The notes under the pieces were generated by a model that was not told the DNA's origin, ran no database searches, and saw only the letters and a list, made by a program, of their open reading frames with translations. This document shows positions 2,152-58,640 of a DNA stretch of 64,000 nt, in pieces. Position 1 is the first letter of the stretch. Each line of letters starts with the position of its first letter. A program made the translations under genes and the position numbers. This DNA is from Fimbriimonadaceae bacterium (GTDB lineage: Bacteria; Armatimonadota; Fimbriimonadia; Fimbriimonadales; Fimbriimonadaceae), in contig JAMLGR010000005.1 of the NCBI GenBank assembly GCA_023957775.1, forward strand, positions 1-64,000, given 5' to 3'.

Positions 2152-3893
2152 ACCGCCCCTGGATGTGCGCCCTGGCGGTCGCCGCTTTCGTGGCTGGCCT
2201 GTTGGCGCTGCCGAAAACACGGTGGCTGTTGCCCAATCAGCTTGAGTTGCTCTCGGGCGGATGGGAGCTGAAGCCGGATTACTTCCTTGTTCCCGAGGAG
2301 GAGGCCGATCAGATCGCGCTTCCCGCCCACCTCGAACCCACGCCACGGGTTCTCAGCATTGCCGACCCCCGCGACGACCAGGAGCGGATGTTCGCGCTGC
2401 TTCGAGAAGCACCCGACTTCCGTGACGGGGAGGCCTATTGGGGGCGGTTTTCGGCGCTGCAGGCTGTGTGTGACCGCCTTGACACGGCTCCCACCCTGGC
2501 GCAGTTCATCCGCGTCGCATCGAACCCGGCGACCTGGACCGGTGGTCCCGCCAACTTCTCGAACGTGCGGGCGAAGTTGCAGGCGACGGTGCTCGCGGCT
2601 TGCGCAAGGGGCGCGGAACTCGACCCGGACAACGCCTTCTTCTTGCTGATGCGAGGCGCGATCCTCGATGCTCAAGGTCACAGGGACGGGGCCTCCCAAG
2701 CACTGTTCGCCGCCTCGAACCTTCGCCACTACCGCGCTTACGAGTGGACCGAGGTTTCCGTGGGGCGGCGCGCCCTCCAGTCCCGGTACCCGCGGTCGCA
2801 AGCCGAAATCGCGTGGCTGGCAGCATCTGTCGTCTTGCCGCATCTGGCATCCTTCCGAACCGCCACCCGGAACTTCACCTCGGGGGACGAGCCTGCGAAT
2901 CGGGCGGCCGTGGTCCGCATCGGGGGGCTGTTGCTTCGGGATGGCACGTCTCCGATCGATCCGTTTGTTGGCTTTCTCTTGATCTCTCACGCGCTCAAGC
3001 CCAAGGGGGAGCCCAACCTCCTTACACGCTTGAGTCCCGAAGAGGCACGTACCCGCGCGACCGTGCTCGCCGAGGAGACGGACGACCCCCTTCTCGACGA
3101 CCTCGCCCTGGACTACGGGCGATTCTTTCCCGCGATGTCGCATGGCCGCTTCGGCCCCGGCAGCTATATGGAAGACCGCTTGAACACGCTGCGGCCATTG
3201 TTCGGCGCCTGGGTCTTGGCGGCATTTGCAGCGCTTCCCGCCCTTGCGGGGCTTTACCGGCTCCGAACATGGATGACCGATCGCTTCCGCCGTTGCAGCG
3301 CGCCGCTTGTGTGGTTGTTGGCGATCCCTCTGGCGATGGCCGCGATTCCCGGCCGATCTCCGCTACCGGTGGAGTTGAGCCTGCTCGCCATCCTCGCTCC
3401 CTTGGGGTGGGTGTTCAAGAGGCCCGAGACGCTGGGATTCGTCGGCGGCGTGGCTGCGATCGCCACGGTCTCGGCCATCCCGGGGTGCACCGCCGCGTGG
3501 GTACTGGGGGCCGTCGTGATCTTGGCCGCAGCGTTGTCTCCCAAGGCGCAGGTGCCTTGGTGGGTCGCAGGTGTCTCCTTGACCGGAGCCAGCCTTATCG
3601 TCGGTGGGATCGCCGCCTTCTCAGCCCTACTGGGTTCGTGGCTGGGGGCGGTCATGTCGGGGCTTGCCGCTACGGTCGTTCTTGCGGCGGTCCTCCCGTT
3701 GCCTCGGCGCCGCGAACGGCCGCGCGCAGCGGGTCTGGCGTGCGCGACGTTGGGAGCGCTCTACGTCGCGGCAGCCTTCATGGCCATTGGCTACGACGCG
3801 CAGGCGGGGGCGGTTCTCGACACGTTGTTGAACCAGGCGGCCTCGGCTCGGTCGGAACTCGGTGTGGGTTCGACCTCAGCGCTGGAGGGTTGA
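2148..3893 (+). CDS. Large membrane protein with N-terminal extracytoplasmic region, function unknown
   Basis: A 581-residue protein starting at an ATG that overlaps the stop of the preceding gene (ATGA). It has an N-terminal signal or anchor helix ('CALAVAAFVAGLLAL'). A soluble region of about 350 residues follows, with helical content reminiscent of TPR-like repeats ('ARGAELDPDNAFFLLMRGAI'). The C-terminal third (about residues 350-560) carries six or more transmembrane segments, such as 'FGAWVLAAFAALPALAGLY' and 'TVVLAAVLPL'. I do not recognise a family. As third gene of the sigma-factor operon it may be a sensor or an effector of that regulon. Confidence 0.7.
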   Translation: MNRPWMCALAVAAFVAGLLALPKTRWLLPNQLELLSGGWELKPDYFLVPEEEADQIALPAHLEPTPRVLSIADPRDDQERMFALLREAPDFRDGEAYWGRFSALQAVCDRLDTAPTLAQFIRVASNPATWTGGPANFSNVRAKLQATVLAACARGAELDPDNAFFLLMRGAILDAQGHRDGASQALFAASNLRHYRAYEWTEVSVGRRALQSRYPRSQAEIAWLAASVVLPHLASFRTATRNFTSGDEPANRAAVVRIGGLLLRDGTSPIDPFVGFLLISHALKPKGEPNLLTRLSPEEARTRATVLAEETDDPLLDDLALDYGRFFPAMSHGRFGPGSYMEDRLNTLRPLFGAWVLAAFAALPALAGLYRLRTWMTDRFRRCSAPLVWLLAIPLAMAAIPGRSPLPVELSLLAILAPLGWVFKRPETLGFVGGVAAIATVSAIPGCTAAWVLGAVVILAAALSPKAQVPWWVAGVSLTGASLIVGGIAAFSALLGSWLGAVMSGLAATVVLAAVLPLPRRRERPRAAGLACATLGALYVAAAFMAIGYDAQAGAVLDTLLNQAASARSELGVGSTSALEG

Positions 3894-6411: not shown

Positions 6412-6925
6412 CTTGGCCCCTCCGCGTGAAACCCCTCCAGCGCCCATTGCGTTCTTTGCGTGCAACTCCCCTCGCCTCCTCCGCGCCTCCGCACGAAACC
6501 CCCTAGCGCCCTTTGCGCACTTTGCGTGCAACTCCCCTCCCCTCCTCCGCGCCCCACCGCCTCAGCGTGAAGCCCCAGCGCCCATTGCGCTCCTTGCGTG
6601 AAACCCCTCCGCGCCTCAGAGCCTCTGCGTGAAACCCCCTGGCGACCGTTGCGCACTTTGCGTGAAACCCCAGCGCGCCTCACCGCCTCCGCGTGAAACC
6701 CCTCCAGCGCCCATTGCGTTCTTTGCGTGCAACTCCCCTCGCCTCCTCCGCGCCTCCGCACGAAACCCCTCCAGCTCCCATTGCGTTCTTTGCGTGCAAC
6801 TCCCCTCCCCTCCTCCGCGCCCCACCGCCTCAGCGTGAAGCCCCAGCGCCCATTGCACTCTTTGCGTGAAACCCCTCCGCGCCTCAGAGCCTCTGCGTGA
6901 AACCCCCTGGCGACCGTTGCGTGCG
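6412..6925. repeat. Long family A repeat array with an internal ~267-bp duplication
   Basis: Alternating modules of the types 'gcgcccattgcgttctttg' + 'cgtg' and 'ctcctccgcgcctccgcac' fill the space between the ABC ATPase and valS. About 6419-6650 is repeated at about 6686-6918 with an offset of 267-268 bp and few differences, pointing to a recent segmental duplication. There is no open reading frame with protein-like composition. The array is written in the opposite orientation to the ABC gene before it. Confidence 0.9.
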
Positions 6926-6968: not shown

Positions 6969-7033
6969 CCAAGCCCCCACCCCAACCAGGTATCCTCGGA
7001 GCTCCTTTCACGACAGGAAAGGAGGCTGACAAC

Positions 7034-9999: not shown

Positions 10000-10035
10000 C
10001 CCCATTCGCCCTCCGCGCCCTTCGCCTAGCCCCAT

Positions 10036-10188
10036 AGCGGTCTTTGCGTTCTTTGCGTGAAAACCCTCCGCGCCTCAGCGCCTCTGCGTGAAACCCCTAG
10101 CGATCTTTGCGTTCTTTGCGTGAAAACCCTCCGCGCCTCAGCGCCTCTGCGTGAAACCCCTAGCGATCTTTGCGTTCTTTGCGTGAAA
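10036..10188 (-). repeat. Family A repeat array overlapping the end of the ComEC-type hydrolase gene
   Basis: Nearly identical units 'ctccgcgcctcagcgcctct' + 'gcgtgaaaac' and 'ctagcgatctttgcgttctt' + 'tgcgtg'. Read on the minus strand they follow, and partly encode, the 3' end of the metallo-beta-lactamase-fold gene. Confidence 0.9.
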
Positions 10189-11032
10189 CTGGCGCGAGAA
10201 GGTGGACCCCTTCGGCCCCGAACGTGAAGCGGATCGTCCCGTCGCGGTCCGTGCGCAGCACCTTCGCGTCCGCCGCCTCGTAGCGCGCCAGCACCGAGCC
10301 GCTCGGATGCCCGTACCGGTTGTCGCGCCCGCAGCTCGCGACCGCGTAGCGCGGATGCACCGAGGCCAACCACCGCGGACCCGAGGACGTCGCGCTGCCG
10401 TGGTGGCCCGCCATGATGACCTCCGCACGCCAATCCTCGCCGCGCGCCAAGACCGCCGCCTCCGTGTCCACCCCCGCGTCGCCACTCAACGTGGCGCTCG
10501 CTTGACCATTCGTTAGGTGAACAAACAACGATCCTTGGTTGTCCTCGGCCCCGCGGGCCAGGGGAGGGGCGACGATCCGCGCCTCGAGCGCGCCGATCGA
10601 GACGTGCGCCTCCGCGTCGATCCAGAGTATCCGGTCCTCGCCGATGCCCGCGCGACGCAACGCCCGGCGCAGGTCCTTGTGGTCGTGGAACGCGCGCGAC
10701 GCCGCCACCCGGCCGATGGGAAACGCGCGCGCCAAGGAGGGAAGACCCCCGATGTGGTCCGCGTCCGGGTGGGTCAGCAACACGAGATCGAGCGTCTCCA
10801 CGCCCAACTCGTGCAACGCGGGCGCCGCCAAACGAAGCCCCGCGTCGAACCGGTCCGTCGCGGGCGCCGCGTCCACCAACACCGTGCAACCCGCATGCTG
10901 AAGCACCACGCAGTCGCCTTGGCCCACCGCGAGGAACGACAGAGCGCTCGCGGGAAAGGGCTCGCTCCAACCCCACATGCCCCCCAGCGCCGCCGGAACC
11001 AGCGCCCCGGCGATCCAGCGCAAGGCCCTCAC
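10160..11032 (-). CDS. ComEC-type metallo-beta-lactamase-fold hydrolase, separate C-terminal half of ComEC
   Basis: A 290-residue protein equivalent to the extracellular C-terminal domain of ComEC/Rec2, proposed to process DNA during uptake. After a membrane segment ('IAGALVPAALGGMWGW') it reads 'SFLAVGQGDCVVLQHAG', then the metal motif 'LLTHPDADHIGGL', 'ATLSGDAGVD' and 'VIMAGHHGSATSSG', all typical of ComEC. It begins at GTG 11032, whose last bases form the TGA of the upstream channel gene (GTGA overlap). The two halves are therefore translationally coupled rather than fused. The final residues 'SRKERKDR' and the TAG stop come from a family A repeat. An alternative reading is that a frameshift split an ancestral fused gene. 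Confidence 0.85.
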   Translation of the reverse strand: MRALRWIAGALVPAALGGMWGWSEPFPASALSFLAVGQGDCVVLQHAGCTVLVDAAPATDRFDAGLRLAAPALHELGVETLDLVLLTHPDADHIGGLPSLARAFPIGRVAASRAFHDHKDLRRALRRAGIGEDRILWIDAEAHVSIGALEARIVAPPLARGAEDNQGSLFVHLTNGQASATLSGDAGVDTEAAVLARGEDWRAEVIMAGHHGSATSSGPRWLASVHPRYAVASCGRDNRYGHPSGSVLARYEAADAKVLRTDRDGTIRFTFGAEGVHLLAPVSRKERKDR

Positions 11033-37206: not shown

Positions 37207-37518
37207 GGGGCGCGTAAAGGGCGCCGGAGGTTTCACGCGGAGGCGCGGAGGCGCTCGGGGTTTCACGCGGAGGCGCAGAGGCGCGGAGGAGTTTCACGCA
37301 AAGGGCGCAAAGGGCGCAAAGGGGGGAAGGGGCTCGGGGTTTCACGCAAAGGGCGCTAAGGGCGCTGGGGGCACGCGAAAGGGTGGGTGCCACGCCCGCC
37401 CGACGGGCGTGCAGGGGCGCGGAGGGGCGAGCCCCGGTCATCCGAGCGTTCCGGTCATCCCGAGCGTTCCGGTCATCCCGAGCCTCTCCCGGTCATCCCG
37501 AGCGAAGTCGAGGGATCT
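37207..37518 (+). repeat. Composite repeat block: families A, C and partial B
   Basis: Family A modules ('tttcacgcggaggcgcgga', 'tttcacgcaaagggcgc') run from just after the permease stop to about 37371, in the orientation of that gene. A family C palindrome (37392-37410) follows, then four short tandem 'ggtcatcccgagc' units and half of a family B element ('gcgaagtcgagggatct') ending near 37518. These account for the whole 340-nt gap; no gene is present. Confidence 0.9.
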
Positions 37519-40249: not shown

Positions 40250-40371
40250 CTTGAACTGGGTTTGTCCATCCAGTCCGATTGCGCTCGCACCGCGCAAAAT
40301 TACTGGGTTTGCCAAGTAGGCCGGGGCGGGGACTTGCGGGACTGTTGTTCCTGTGGTACGTTGGTAGGATC

Positions 40372-40938
40372 ATGAAAGGAAGGTTCGGAGTTGCGTGCCT
40401 TGCAGGGGCCGTGCTGGCGGGTCAGGCGTCCGCGACCATCGTCAACATCAGCACGCATCTGGGTGCGAATCCCGTCGAGGTGACGGTCGGCTCGATCAAG
40501 CACGTCGGGGTGACCCTCTCGCTCGGGCCCGGGACCCACACCGTGACCCCGATCGACACCTCCGGCGGGGGCGCTTACACGGCAGCAAACCGGTTCAGCC
40601 AAGTCAACCTCCCCTTCAAGGGCTGGGAGTGGAACGTGTTCGTCTCTACCGACGGCGGGCTGACAGGAGTCAAGCACGGGTATGGAGGCGGGTCGCCCTC
40701 GAACGATGACCCGTACCAGGCGACCGCCGCCGCCGCGTTTGCGGCGGCTCCGGCCCCGTTTCTGTTGACCTACGGTTCAGCGACGGACGTCACGTTCTTC
40801 TGGCTGGACGACAACTTCGGGGACAACACGGGAGGCATCTCAATCGATGTCAGCAGCCCCGTCCCAGAGCCCTTCACGCTGAGCCTTGTCGGGCTCGCGC
40901 TGGCAACCGCCGTGCGCCGTCGGCGCAAGCTGGCCTGA
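40372..40938 (+). CDS. Secreted PEP-CTERM protein
   Basis: A 188-residue exported protein with a signal peptide ('FGVACLAGAVLAGQASA'), a beta-rich body and a canonical sorting tail: 'SSPVPEPFTLSLVGLALATA' followed by 'VRRRRKLA'. VPEP is the defining motif cut by exosortase. The body has no recognised catalytic motif ('NRFSQVNLPFKGWEWNVFVS'). Unlike the PEP-CTERM gene at 28.5 kb, no sigma-54 promoter is seen upstream. No exosortase gene is in the window. Confidence 0.88.
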   Translation: MKGRFGVACLAGAVLAGQASATIVNISTHLGANPVEVTVGSIKHVGVTLSLGPGTHTVTPIDTSGGGAYTAANRFSQVNLPFKGWEWNVFVSTDGGLTGVKHGYGGGSPSNDDPYQATAAAAFAAAPAPFLLTYGSATDVTFFWLDDNFGDNTGGISIDVSSPVPEPFTLSLVGLALATAVRRRRKLA

Positions 40939-43478: not shown

Positions 43479-44960
43479 ATGGCACGCGCACTGCTCTTCC
43501 TCGCGGCCCTGGTCGTGGCGCTTCCTTGCGCCCGCGCCGACGTTTCGCGGCGCCACGTCTTGGTCATCGTCGTGGACAACGTCGGGGGTGACTCCAAACT
43601 CCCGCAAGCCGTCGAGAACGGCATCGAACTCAAAAACACACTCGCCAAGCTGGACGGGGTGACCGTCAAGGGGACGTCCTTCAACGAAGGGCGCGAGGCC
43701 ATCGCCCGCGCGGTGCAGAACCTGGCGGCGGGAGCCGGCTCCGACGACGGCCTCACGCTCTACTACCTCGGACACGGGTTCAAGAGCGGAGGTTCGAGCT
43801 ACTGGGCCACCGTGGACACCCGCGCCGACGCCGGCCGCCCCACCTCGACCGAAGGCAGCATTTCGACCGAGGACCTCTACAACTGGCTCAAGGGCACTAA
43901 GGCGAGCGAGATCGTGGTGTTCAACGACGCGTGCCGCAACCTCGCCGCAGGCGCCGTCAGCGGCGATGGATGGAACGGATTCGCCAGCCGACTCGCCGCG
44001 GCCGTCCCCCCGGGAGCGGACAAGCGGCGCGTGCTCGTCGTGCATGCGACCCGCGACAACGAAGTGGGACTGTCCCACCCGGACGCGGGCGGCAGCCTTC
44101 TTTGCCGGTTCGTGATCGAGGCAGCCCAAGGACGAGCGGGGAAGTTCGCCGACTTGGACCGCGAAGGCTCGGAAGTGCGCACGCCGCGCCTTCAGGAGTA
44201 CGTGTCCGAGCGGTACAAGTCGTTCCGGACGAAGTTCCGGAACGCACGCGTCGAACCGGAATTCGAAGCCGCGAACCTGCCGGGGGACGGGCTCCACTTC
44301 TGCGGAACGCCCGAACGGCCCGAGGAGTTTGTGCGCCCGGGAACCTTCGACCGGGACAAATTCTGGAAGTCCCTCAACGCCTTTTACGGAGATGCGGCTT
44401 CGAAATTCCGGACCCTCGCGGGTGCCGAACTGCAGGAGCTGAACGTCCTCCGCCGCGGTCGCCCGAAACTCGTCGAATCCAAACGGGGCTTTCCAGGTGC
44501 CGAAGCGACTTGGCTCGTGGACAACCGCTCCGGTTACACGTTCTATGCCGTGCTTGGCCTTTATCCCACGGAAAACGACGCTTACGGGGTGGCAACGAAG
44601 TTCTGCGAAACCCTCCGGTTCAAAGAGGCCCAAGGCACCGAGCAGGTGGGGATTCTGGGCGGCCTTCCCGACCTGTCGAAGATCGATCTGGGCGACGTGA
44701 TCGACATCCTCGGAGGCAAGTCGAGACGGCCGACCAATGCGAACCCCAATGCCCCCAAGTGGATGTGGACCAAGGAGCGGTTTCCCCAGGTGGTGACCCT
44801 GCGGCGGCGCGATCAGAACGGGGCGTCCGTGTACGTCAAGATCGGCATGGTGGAACCCACACCGGAGTACCTTCTTGTCACCCAGCGCATCGCCAACCTC
44901 CAGGAAGCTCAGCAGTACCAGGACCAGCGAATTCTGCTCGTCACCATTCAGGCCTTCTGA
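43479..44960 (+). CDS. Secreted caspase-like (peptidase C14) protein
   Basis: A 493-residue exported protein: signal peptide 'MARALLFLAALVVALPCARA', then a caspase-haemoglobinase fold (about residues 25-240). The catalytic dyad is His99 in 'LTLYYLGHGFKSGG' and Cys152 in 'IVVFNDACRNLAAG', the DACRN form common in bacterial metacaspase-like proteins. The C-terminal 250 residues are unrecognised and contain a SPOR-like alpha/beta segment ('GYTFYAVLGLYPTENDAYGV'). A secreted caspase fold is unusual, as most are cytosolic. Its stop overlaps the 3' end of a convergent FecR-like gene by 13 nt. Confidence 0.85.
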   Translation: MARALLFLAALVVALPCARADVSRRHVLVIVVDNVGGDSKLPQAVENGIELKNTLAKLDGVTVKGTSFNEGREAIARAVQNLAAGAGSDDGLTLYYLGHGFKSGGSSYWATVDTRADAGRPTSTEGSISTEDLYNWLKGTKASEIVVFNDACRNLAAGAVSGDGWNGFASRLAAAVPPGADKRRVLVVHATRDNEVGLSHPDAGGSLLCRFVIEAAQGRAGKFADLDREGSEVRTPRLQEYVSERYKSFRTKFRNARVEPEFEAANLPGDGLHFCGTPERPEEFVRPGTFDRDKFWKSLNAFYGDAASKFRTLAGAELQELNVLRRGRPKLVESKRGFPGAEATWLVDNRSGYTFYAVLGLYPTENDAYGVATKFCETLRFKEAQGTEQVGILGGLPDLSKIDLGDVIDILGGKSRRPTNANPNAPKWMWTKERFPQVVTLRRRDQNGASVYVKIGMVEPTPEYLLVTQRIANLQEAQQYQDQRILLVTIQAF

Positions 44961-45856
44961 GGCAGCAGCGCGTCGAGAGCGGCATCCGAGACACCGACCG
45001 AGTCGGCGAGATCGTGCGCCCGGGTGCGCCAAAACTCGTTCTTGGGCTCTAGCCACGCGCACCGGATCAGGAGGTCGAGCATCTCGGACAATCGCCCCCC
45101 TTCATAGAGAGCCCCGAGCACCTCCAGCAAGTCTGCGCCGGCCTCGAGGTTCGTAGTGGCCCGGAGAAGTGCACGCAGCTCCGCCTCGTCCGTCGGAACG
45201 GCTTCGCCGCCGACCCACTCGACGCGCCGCCTGAGGAGCTCCCCAGCGGCGCCAAGAATGCTCACCACGAGCTCGGAACCAGGTTGGACCCGAGGCACTC
45301 GGAGTCGATGCCCGCCGCGGCCGGCCATCGCCTTCCTGGCCTCGTGGGAGAGCACTTCCGTCGCGACGACGGCGCCGGTGGCCGGATCGAGGACCCGGAT
45401 CGATTGCCAATCGGCGGGCACCGTCGAGGTACGAAACACCAACCCGTCGCCTTGAACGGGGGTGCGATCGAGCGGCAGGATCCAACCGCTGCCTCCTCCC
45501 ATCGATGCGCCAAAGGTCTTTCCGATACCGGCCAAGCGCCGCCGCGCTCGTTCGGGTAGCCGCGACGCGTCCCCTGTCAGGATCATTGTCTTGCCGGCAT
45601 CGACCTTGACGCGTTGACCCGCGGGGGGCACTCGCCCGTCGAACACGATCGCCTGCCCGGTGCTTCCGCAACGCACGCGGTCGCCCCGGAACAGCAGGAC
45701 CCACGAGTACTTGTCGGAACCATCGAACGACCGAACGGGCGTGGTCTTGCCGGCGCGGGTCAACTGCACCGCGCCCTTCGCGTAGACGATGACCGCGAGG
45801 GGTTCCGGGGGCGGCTGCTGCGCGAGCAAGGTCAGCCCCAGCATCAGCTTGAGCAT
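44948..45856 (-). CDS. Exported FecR-like protein
   Basis: A 302-residue protein with an N-terminal signal helix ('MLKLMLGLTLLAQQ') and a FecR-like beta domain ('LAVIVYAKGAVQLTRAGK', 'WVLLFRGDRVRCGSTGQAIV', 'GQRVKVDAGKTMIL'). The middle is beta-rich ('VLDPATGAVVATEVLSHEAR'), and the C-terminus is helical and TPR-like ('EAGADLLEVLGALYEGGRLS'). Probably periplasmic. It follows the CHASE2 gene with a TTGA-type junction (an upstream TTG start at 45862 is possible), so the two are co-translated. Function unknown; FecR-like domains often act in sensing or scaffold assemblies. Confidence 0.65.
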   Translation of the reverse strand: MLKLMLGLTLLAQQPPPEPLAVIVYAKGAVQLTRAGKTTPVRSFDGSDKYSWVLLFRGDRVRCGSTGQAIVFDGRVPPAGQRVKVDAGKTMILTGDASRLPERARRRLAGIGKTFGASMGGGSGWILPLDRTPVQGDGLVFRTSTVPADWQSIRVLDPATGAVVATEVLSHEARKAMAGRGGHRLRVPRVQPGSELVVSILGAAGELLRRRVEWVGGEAVPTDEAELRALLRATTNLEAGADLLEVLGALYEGGRLSEMLDLLIRCAWLEPKNEFWRTRAHDLADSVGVSDAALDALLPQKA

Positions 45857-45858
45857 GA

Positions 45859-47130
45859 TCAATGGGCCTCCGTCCGACTCCAGCCTTCGATGAACGGGGC
45901 CAAGAGCGGCTCGAATAGAAGATAGACCCAGGCTCCCAGGAAGTCAAGCCACAGAACCCGCATTTGGTGCGCCAGGAGGTAGGCCAGACCCAGGGGCACC
46001 AGAGCCACAGCAAGGCGGACGAGGACCCCGCCGTAGTGCCACGCCAACGTCTTCGGACGGCGGAGATCGAGGTGCGTCTGCCACGGCCAAAACAGGGCGA
46101 GGGCGAGCCCCAAAAGACCGATGAACGCGTCCAAAGCGATGCTCTCCGCATGGTGCAGCTGCTGGATCGGAGCCTGCGCCATTGTGTAGGCCGCGCACGC
46201 GTGGGCGTAGATGCCGCGCATGATGTCCCCGCCCGCCGGCTGCCGATGCTCGTCGTACGCGAAGTAGTCCTGGTCGCGGAGGGGATCGGCCTTTCCGACC
46301 AGCACGATCTTGCCCTCCAGCATCGAGCGCGAGAGGGAATCCAGGAGGGCACCTCCCTCGGGTGGACCTGTGAAGGCGGTGATCTCCTCAGCGTGCTTGA
46401 GGAGCGAGTAGTCGACGAGGAACCTCGGCGCGCGAAGTTCGGGGGGGAATCGGGGGTCGCTCTCGATCCAGTGCCTTGGCTGAAAGACGTCCCGTTGACC
46501 AAACGCTTCGGGACGGATCTTAGCGCGGCCAAGGACCGCGCCCATGGCGGGTAGGCGGTCGCCAGTCCGGGTGTCCTCGTAGAAGAGCGGCTGGGCCGTC
46601 AAGTCGGTCGGGAGGAAGATCGCCGCCGCGAGGTGCCGCGCGTCCTTGGGCAGCCAGTGTTCCGGACCCACCAACAACCCGCGTCCCACTCCCACGTAGG
46701 TGGGGACCCCCGTGTCGGCCGTGTAGTGCTTCATTTGGGCGATCAAGGCTTCGTGCTCGGAGCGCATGATCCCGTCGGTGCCGGGAGATACGTCGATGTC
46801 GAAGCCGATGGCCAGCGGCGGCGGGTCGAGCGCTCGCAATTCCGCGAAGAACCGTTCCCACCGCTCGGAACCGATGGGACGCACGATCTGGTTGCCCTCC
46901 AAATCGTAGAGTGAGCTGACATCGCAAACGGCCACGGGGACACTTGCGGGATCCAGCCGATCCGGCCGAAGCCACTCTCGCAGGTTGGTGAGTGCCAGAG
47001 ACTCGACGCGCTCGCTCACCCGGGGCTCGACGACGAACGCGCCTGTGGGGAACAGGACGAGGAACACGAGGATGTGCAGCACTGTGTGCCGGCTCCACCG
47101 AACTCTCGCACCTTCCCTCCGCTTCCTCAC
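45859..47130 (-). CDS. CHASE2-domain membrane sensor protein without output domain
   Basis: A 423-residue protein: one N-terminal helix ('HTVLHILVFLVLFPTGAFVV'), a long extracytoplasmic CHASE2 domain (about residues 45-310; 'PVAVCDVSSLYDLEGNQIV', 'LAIGFDIDVSPGTDGIMRSE', 'MLEGKIVLVGKADPLRDQDY', 'GDIMRGIYAHACAAYTMA') and three closing C-terminal helices ('DAFIGLLGLALALFWPW', 'LVRLAVALVPLGLAYLLA'). CHASE2 proteins usually carry a kinase, cyclase or protease module after the helices; here the chain ends at the membrane. The start is GTG 47130, as upstream sequence is Arg-rich non-protein. Divergent from the M1 peptidase. Confidence 0.85.
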   Translation of the reverse strand: MRKRREGARVRWSRHTVLHILVFLVLFPTGAFVVEPRVSERVESLALTNLREWLRPDRLDPASVPVAVCDVSSLYDLEGNQIVRPIGSERWERFFAELRALDPPPLAIGFDIDVSPGTDGIMRSEHEALIAQMKHYTADTGVPTYVGVGRGLLVGPEHWLPKDARHLAAAIFLPTDLTAQPLFYEDTRTGDRLPAMGAVLGRAKIRPEAFGQRDVFQPRHWIESDPRFPPELRAPRFLVDYSLLKHAEEITAFTGPPEGGALLDSLSRSMLEGKIVLVGKADPLRDQDYFAYDEHRQPAGGDIMRGIYAHACAAYTMAQAPIQQLHHAESIALDAFIGLLGLALALFWPWQTHLDLRRPKTLAWHYGGVLVRLAVALVPLGLAYLLAHQMRVLWLDFLGAWVYLLFEPLLAPFIEGWSRTEAH

Positions 47131-47234
47131 CTGCCGAATTGTAAGGCGATTTCGAGCGGCGAGGCAACGTGCCGCCGCGCAACCTCGGCGTATCATGGAC
47201 AGGGGAGACATTGAAATTGGAAGGGAGACCTCGC

Positions 47235-58294: not shown

Positions 58295-58400
58295 GGTCAT
58301 CCCGAGCGCGGTCGAGGGATCCGCTTGCACGGGACACCCGTGTCCGAGCGCGGGTACGAGCCGACCGGAGCCAGATCCCTCGACGTTGCTCGGGATGACC
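58295..58400. repeat. Full-length family B element
   Basis: Begins 'ggtcatcccgagcgcggtcg' + 'agggatc' and ends 'gatccctcgacgttgctcgg' + 'gatgacc', giving terminal inverted repeats of about 25 nt. Two short 'ggatgaccgaggaggcccc' tandem units trail it. Just before it, 58252-58279, is a short 'gtccttggtccttcgtcctt' reiteration. Confidence 0.85.
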
Positions 58401-58441
58401 GAGGAGGCCCCGGATGACCGAGGGGGCCCCGGATGACCGAG

Positions 58442-58640
58442 GAGCTACCCCCCTCCGCGCCTCCGCGCCTCTGCGTGAACCATCCCTTGCGCTCCTTGCG
58501 TTCCTTGCGTGAAACTCCCCCCCGCCTCAGCGTGTGCGTGAACCATCCCTTGCGCCCTTTGCGTTCCTTGCGTGAAACTCCCCCGCGCCTCAGCGTGCGC
58601 GTGAAACTCCCCCCCCCCCCCGCGCCTCAGCGTGCGCGGG
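58442..58640 (-). repeat. Family A repeat array downstream of the beta-helix protein gene
   Basis: Modules 'gcgcctctgcgtgaaccatc' + 'ccttgcgctccttgcgttcc' and 'cgcgcctcagcgtgcgcgtg' recur three times, with a 13-nt C run near 58608-58620. On the minus strand they follow the beta-helix gene in its own orientation. With the family B element this fills the 399-nt gap 58250-58648; no gene is seen. Confidence 0.88.

Follow-up and report, generated by a model that had tools for sequence, protein, structure and literature searches.

A probable sensor-protease module at the bacterial cell envelope: a CHASE2 protein without an output domain encoded beside a predicted exported caspase-fold protein

We analysed a 64,000-nucleotide (nt) stretch of contig JAMLGR010000005.1 from a Fimbriimonadaceae bacterium (phylum Armatimonadota), hereafter the window, in which three adjacent genes at 43479-47130 encode a caspase-fold protein of peptidase family C14 with a signal-peptide-like start, a small middle protein, and a CHASE2 membrane protein. 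The locus is probably a real sensor-protease module at the cell envelope, since distant bacteria carry the same set of genes, and the conservation of the module is well supported by sequence comparison. With a confidence slightly above even, drawn from sequences and structure models, we read it as a CHASE2 sensor without an output domain that would act together with an exported adaptor and an exported caspase-fold protease. Coordinates in the window refer to its full length, while loci elsewhere carry L-numbers and genomes carry G-numbers.

Recurrence of the gene set in two phyla

The CHASE2 protein or its alignment was the sole bait for the nine loci with an adjacent C14 gene described next. 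L074, a second copy of the module in genome G126, was found via its caspase. Among 41 relatives, the window CHASE2 protein was present in one, namely the window genome itself. The single sequence matched five others of the 291 genomes of the phylum, of which G204 (E = 7.5e-4) is probably spurious, and the CHASE2 alignment matched 13 of these genomes. L055 came from a contig collection searched with a three-sequence CHASE2 alignment, and L065 and L066 were obtained from 396 surveyed Acidobacteriota genomes.

We found an adjacent gene for a predicted exported C14 protein at seven CHASE2-only loci of the Armatimonadota (L018, L019, L020, L021, L047, L049, and L050), where every C14 partner scores above the Pfam Peptidase_C14 cut-off, and at two of the Acidobacteriota (L055 and L065). 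The convergent layout of the window, with the C14 gene facing the middle gene, appears at four loci in both phyla. The C14 proteins of L018 and L020 carry TPR, and their genes overlap the middle genes by 45 nt (3587-3631) and 4 nt (7002-7005), respectively. L055, an Acidobacteriaceae record, contains a CHASE2 gene, a middle gene, and a convergent C14 gene with a 7-nt overlap (10087-10093), and in L065 the middle gene faces a WD40-caspase with Pro replacing the catalytic Cys, while two more caspases nearby have intact dyads. The first-pass annotation had named the lack of a conserved neighbourhood beforehand as one finding that would overturn its proposal; instead, the genes keep each other's company in two phyla, with the convergent layout repeated in both.

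The remaining loci vary in gene order. L021 runs CHASE2, middle gene, and WD40-C14, all in one direction; L047 has CHASE2, C14-TPR, and middle gene; L049 has middle gene, CHASE2, and C14; and L050 has C14, a CsgG-like protein, and CHASE2. In L019, the CHASE2 gene lies behind a single chain formed by a middle-type N-terminal region fused to the caspase. Between L020 and L021, the identity is 46% for CHASE2, 34% for the middle protein, and 23% for the caspase, with TPR added in one and WD40 in the other, a contrast that fits an effector being exchanged while the sensor pair stays constant. As a separate observation, exported caspase-domain proteins are densely clustered in L065 (G366:C51) around a single CHASE2-middle pair.

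A CHAT protein stands in the caspase's place at L090, from the taxonomic order of the genome bearing L065, where a three-gene operon encodes a small exported protein, a CHASE2-only protein, and an exported TPR-CHAT protein (CHAT E = 5.8e-51). L072, on a Caballeronia plasmid, contains genes for a CHASE2-only protein and a short exported protein, followed by an IS66-like insertion and then a TPR-CHAT gene. A plasmid search with the C14 protein as the query gave one weak match. L066 encodes a CHASE2 protein with EAD5 and a middle protein, and the gene for an exported TPR-CHAT protein lies 3 kilobases (kb) away. The EAD5 effector-associated domain of L066 (7075-8757) occupies the cytosolic N-terminus of the CHASE2 protein, and the adjoining trypsin-like protein starts similarly; this locus is a link between CHASE2-middle pairs and the cytosolic adaptors of conflict systems.

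CHASE2 proteins that have or lack an output domain

The CHASE2 gene of the window (45859-47130, minus strand) has a GTG start and encodes 423 residues. The first-pass assignment to CHASE2 does not stand on the window protein itself, which scores 19.8 bits (E = 6.5e-4) against Pfam PF05226 and so falls below the cut-off of 26.3 bits, but it holds through the relatives, since most of them, including the homologues in L019, L020, L021, L055, and L065, pass the cut-off, and homologues that pass align with the window protein along its length. The N-terminus is strongly basic. Hydropathy peaks lie at residues 16-34, 330-348, and 369-387, and a fourth helix was placed by inspection at about 396-413, which gives one helix before the CHASE2 loop and three after it. 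As previously proposed, the chain ends after its transmembrane helices: it stops about 10 residues past the last one, with no kinase, cyclase, GGDEF, or other cytosolic output domain, and its cytosolic ends are short, at about 15 and about 10 residues. In ordinary receptors, CHASE2 senses on the periplasmic side and the signal is normally relayed inwards.

In contrast, none of the 10 complete loci (8-15 kb each) whose CHASE2 proteins bear extra domains (L046, L051, L052, L053, L067-L071, and L093) has a C14 or CHAT neighbour. Reading by eye gave a cyclase as the extra domain in L046 and L051-L053 and a cyclase-like region in L067, and in the other five the domain was inferred from a length of 686-892 residues. 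C14 genes accompany 11 of 12 CHASE2-only loci and 0 of 10 output-bearing loci (Fisher p = 3.4e-5, a value that ignores relatedness among loci that are not independent); the count takes in the window and L074, becomes 9 of 10 complete loci without these two, and leaves the CHAT-bearing loci outside both sets. This contrast yields a clear rule by which membership of a CHASE2 gene in a protease module can be predicted from the absence of an output domain. In L046 (3203-5242), the cyclase-like region is N-terminal instead of C-terminal in the CHASE2 protein, and a middle-type gene adjoins.

The caspase-fold protein

The C14 gene (43479-44960, plus strand) encodes 493 residues, comprising a signal-peptide-like segment (1-21), a caspase domain (about 21-275), and a C-terminal region (276-493) for which we found no family match. 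The N-terminus is hydrophobic and carries a site of the Ala-x-Ala type in a segment that ends with CARAD (MARALLFLAALVVALPCARAD), in line with the signal peptide proposed earlier, and this hydropathy suggests that the protein is exported.

A direct scan of the window protein with PF00656 gives no match above the cut-off. However, the tested C14 partners in relatives pass it and align with the window protein, to which the nine partners from other loci show 12-20% identity. Direct matches of the window protein are weak, both to the NCBIfam EACC1-type caspase (E = 3.3e-8, 33 bits against a cut-off of 140) and to a PADLOC caspase (1e-10), whereas the profile of the ten-member alignment finds metacaspase-4 (E = 2.8e-16), as well as metacaspase-9, metacaspase-1, and MALT1. 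The predicted local distance difference test (pLDDT) score of the structure model is about 80-94 over most of residues 21-150, moderate to about 220, and poor beyond. Residues 17-275 of the model superpose on MALT1 with a VIA-align Z of 18.8 and a root-mean-square deviation of 3.6 over 204 residues, and the Z for metacaspase-4 is 17.8. The C14 domain therefore models as a caspase/haemoglobinase fold, in line with the fold named in the first-pass annotation.

Only His99, Asp150, Cys152, and Gly158 are invariant across the ten aligned sequences. The codon for His99 (in a GHG motif) lies at 43773-43775, and the D-x-C motif formed by D150-A151-C152 lies at 43926-43934, with the Cys152 codon at 43932-43934. 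In the model, His99 follows the strand at 91-98 and Cys152 follows the strand at 144-151, matching the caspase pattern, in which the catalytic His comes after strand 3 and the catalytic Cys after strand 4. The dyad described earlier is intact in sequence, and the active site is competent-looking on the model, so the second finding that the first-pass annotation had named as refuting its proposal was not obtained either. Outside the animal caspases, C14 members cleave after Arg or Lys (PMC5756287). Since Asp150 stands two residues before Cys, as in metacaspases and orthocaspases, a basic P1 preference may be inferred by analogy.

Matches to the caspase profile number five in the window genome, leaving four further caspase-like genes without CHASE2 pairing. 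Among its caspases are two large caspase-domain proteins of about 1000 residues each without a CHASE2 partner, in L075 (6926-9922) and L076 (5032-8181), of which at least the one in L075 has a signal-peptide-like start.

The middle protein

The middle gene (44948-45856, minus strand) encodes a predicted exported protein of 302 residues with a short hydrophobic N-terminus. The first-pass annotation called it FecR-like; the protein gives no Pfam match to FecR (PF04773) at E <= 1 and does not align with the FecR-looking neighbours of cyclase-bearing CHASE2 genes, and we dropped the term as a family label, keeping it usable as a description only. A low-confidence model (pLDDT 55.7) shows a β-rich N-terminal part, an immunoglobulin (Ig)-like middle, and a TPR-like helical C-terminus. 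The profile of the middle protein and its nearest relatives matches the Acidobacteriota middle proteins by hhalign (E = 1.4e-6, 182 columns), which indicates that the middle proteins of the Armatimonadota and Acidobacteriota loci are homologous. Single-sequence hhalign among middle proteins gave almost nothing, and grouped-profile alignment between the Acidobacteriota middle proteins of C14 loci and those of CHAT loci gave no match.

Layout of the locus and other observations in the window

The three open reading frames have the positions and strands first assigned to them, and the 13-nt convergent overlap between the C14 and middle genes is confirmed at 44948-44960. The coupling proposed for the CHASE2 and middle genes, both on the minus strand, corresponds to a spacing of 2 nt from the CHASE2 stop (45859) to the start of the middle gene (45856), so the pair looks co-transcribed. 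The convergent overlap recurs with varied lengths in two phyla, as given above for L018, L020, and L055, and the transcripts of the protease and the middle protein may accordingly be coupled in antisense. A promoter-like TTGCCT-18-TACAAT (47138-47167, minus strand), recognised by a consensus match only, precedes the CHASE2 gene; its -10 element ends 8 nt ahead of the GTG and is compatible with a leaderless transcript.

The neighbours of the module in the window are oxidoreductase, M1 peptidase, and Lpt-like genes. No shared gene order was seen at the M1-peptidase flank among the six relatives compared. The G+C content is 64-68% throughout, and the composition gives no sign of a foreign island.

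Elsewhere in the window, arrays of related short units of the TGCGTGAAA / CGCCTCAGCGC type occur at 6419-6921, 10031-10189, 37220-37323, and 58472-58613, and short tandem repeats with GGTCATCC or its reverse complement GGATGACC occur at 37434-37504 and 58393-58444, possibly as members of a dispersed intergenic repeat family. An exported protein of 219 residues (40279-40938) ends in VPEPFTLSLVGLALATAVRRRRKLA, a PEP-CTERM-like sorting signal.

Proposed mechanism and alternatives

In the mechanism that we lean towards, the four-helix CHASE2 protein would sit in the inner membrane and present its sensory domain to the periplasm. The small exported adaptor (β-rich, Ig, and TPR), encoded in the CHASE2 operon, would bind this domain, and the separately encoded, exported caspase-fold cysteine protease would be the output, on the same side of the membrane as the sensor. 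The CHASE2-adaptor pair might hold the protease inactive or position it, until an envelope stimulus releases or activates it; it would then cleave proteins of the periplasm or the outer membrane, with Arg or Lys as the probable cutting sites. The output is most likely on the outer side because CHASE2 normally signals inwards, yet here nothing inside would receive the signal. The middle protein is the natural adaptor, as exported proteins are encoded beside CHASE2 genes of both kinds, including that of the Burkholderia CHASE2 kinase. Export, the physical complex, the activation, the stimulus, and the substrate are all parts that we infer. The conserved neighbourhood and the competent-looking active site support a linked sensor-protease module on the periplasmic side, and in part the periplasmic sensing and proteolytic system proposed at first, whose FecR label and remark on fusions were not borne out. 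Tentatively, and with a confidence somewhat short of even, we extend this scheme to a general class, in which a CHASE2 receptor without an output domain would control a swappable exported caspase-fold protease (C14-TPR, C14-WD40, repeat-free C14, or TPR-CHAT), with sensing and output both outside the inner membrane.

Several observations weigh against the proposed mechanism. The signal peptides of the module proteins were judged by hydropathy alone, and the N-terminus of the middle protein is short. The convergent layout places the protease gene of the window outside the sensor's operon, and L092 encodes a CHASE2-only protein with no caspase or CHAT neighbour. Moreover, the loci are far apart, and once near-duplicates are dropped the distances among CHASE2 proteins show no correlation with those among the caspases (r = 0.16, p = 0.19), so the caspases look swapped and not strictly co-inherited with CHASE2. 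The mirror-tree correlation was left unused as support, being strong with near-duplicates and gone for CHASE2 versus caspase without them.

The missing co-variation at depth, together with the four further unpaired caspase-like genes of the window genome, would suit an ordinary CHASE2-adaptor pair lying by chance beside an unrelated secreted caspase. We regard such an accident as very improbable, and the locus survey and the output-domain contrast largely refute it: with CHASE2 as the sole bait, an adjacent C14 gene was found at nine loci in two phyla, four of them convergent across both, a fused version exists in L019, and the count at output-bearing CHASE2 genes was 0 of 10. Caspase-profile regions number 1-8 in each module-bearing genome of the Armatimonadota, 4 in G291, and 16 in G366, and with so few caspase genes per genome chance adjacency is unlikely. 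A relay by regulated proteolysis is a different and rather unlikely case, in which the exported caspase would be the transducer, cutting CHASE2 or the adaptor so that the change passes via the CHASE2 helices or short tails to an unlinked cytosolic partner. The partners are indeed tightly linked, overlapping in some loci and fused in L019, and the EAD5 adaptor domain on the cytosolic N-terminus in L066 indicates that CHASE2 proteins of this clade can address cytosolic partners; however, very little of the window CHASE2 protein lies inside, and no conserved neighbour gene for a cytosolic protein was seen in the other loci.

We are similarly doubtful of an envelope effector of cell death or anti-parasite defence, whose triggered protease would destroy the cell's own envelope proteins in an abortive response or attack neighbours. 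Bacterial conflict systems typically contain caspase and CHAT effectors as well as effector-associated domains (PMC7159879, PMC8195603), EAD5 is joined to CHASE2 in L066, the distribution of the CHASE2 protein is patchy (one genome among 41 relatives, and 13 of the phylum's 291 genomes with its alignment as the query), and effectors are swapped, as between L020 and L021. On the other hand, we saw no NTPase switch, nuclease or toxin partner, or defence-island neighbours in the window, and the multi-gene caspase conflict systems of PMC7159879 depend on nucleoside triphosphates (NTP), fitting the cytoplasm rather than the periplasm. If the envelope module proposed here is correct, it touches on an extracytoplasmic role of bacterial caspases that is almost unstudied, and a small three-gene module makes the targets of the protease, and the CHASE2 stimulus that switches it on, testable.

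Comparison with known systems

In a literature search of limited coverage, which may have missed others, we found no paper that brings CHASE2, caspase, and FecR together, and none that links a CHASE2 protein without an output domain to an exported caspase or CHAT protein. Already known are pairs of FecR with CHASE2, a single caspase-CHASE2 fusion whose caspase is cytosolic, caspases in conflict systems, and a WD40-CHASE2-DUF928 cluster. The last of these, in Nostoc (PMC5587647), groups a CHASE2 gene with WD40 genes and so resembles L021 and L065, where the caspase carries the WD40 repeats; however, no caspase was reported in the Nostoc cluster, which belongs to another phylum. The EACC1-type and CATRA caspase systems (PMC7159879, PMC8195603) are likewise multi-gene modules whose caspase effector has variable partners, and the window protein weakly matches an EACC1-associated caspase, but those systems are NTP-dependent, and no EACC1 or NTPase gene was seen among the window neighbours.

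Like orthocaspases and bacterial metacaspases, the window protein appears to combine a caspase fold with a His-Cys dyad, an Asp two residues before Cys, and a profile match. It differs from them in being so divergent that it lacks a direct Pfam match, in its signal-peptide-like N-terminus, and in 220 C-terminal residues without an assigned family. The first-pass annotation held that caspase and CHASE2 usually form one fused chain, whereas every pair that we found consists of two genes, and the literature gave a single fusion, the metacaspase-CHASE2 protein of Trichodesmium erythraeum, whose caspase is predicted to be cytoplasmic (PMC3501461, PMC2853523). Both this fusion and the window locus bring a CHASE2 sensor together with a caspase domain of family C14, but in the window the genes are separate and the caspase is apparently exported to the sensor's side. 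In the case of Burkholderia BiofilmReg, an exported protein of the FecR type (FecR-LysM) is encoded beside a CHASE2 histidine kinase (PMC5192318), just as the gene for the exported protein directly adjoins the CHASE2 sensor gene in the window. The CHASE2 protein of BiofilmReg extends into a PAS-kinase in the cytosol and works together with a response regulator, whereas the window protein stops at the membrane, and its locus has, in place of a linked kinase or regulator, a predicted caspase-fold protease.

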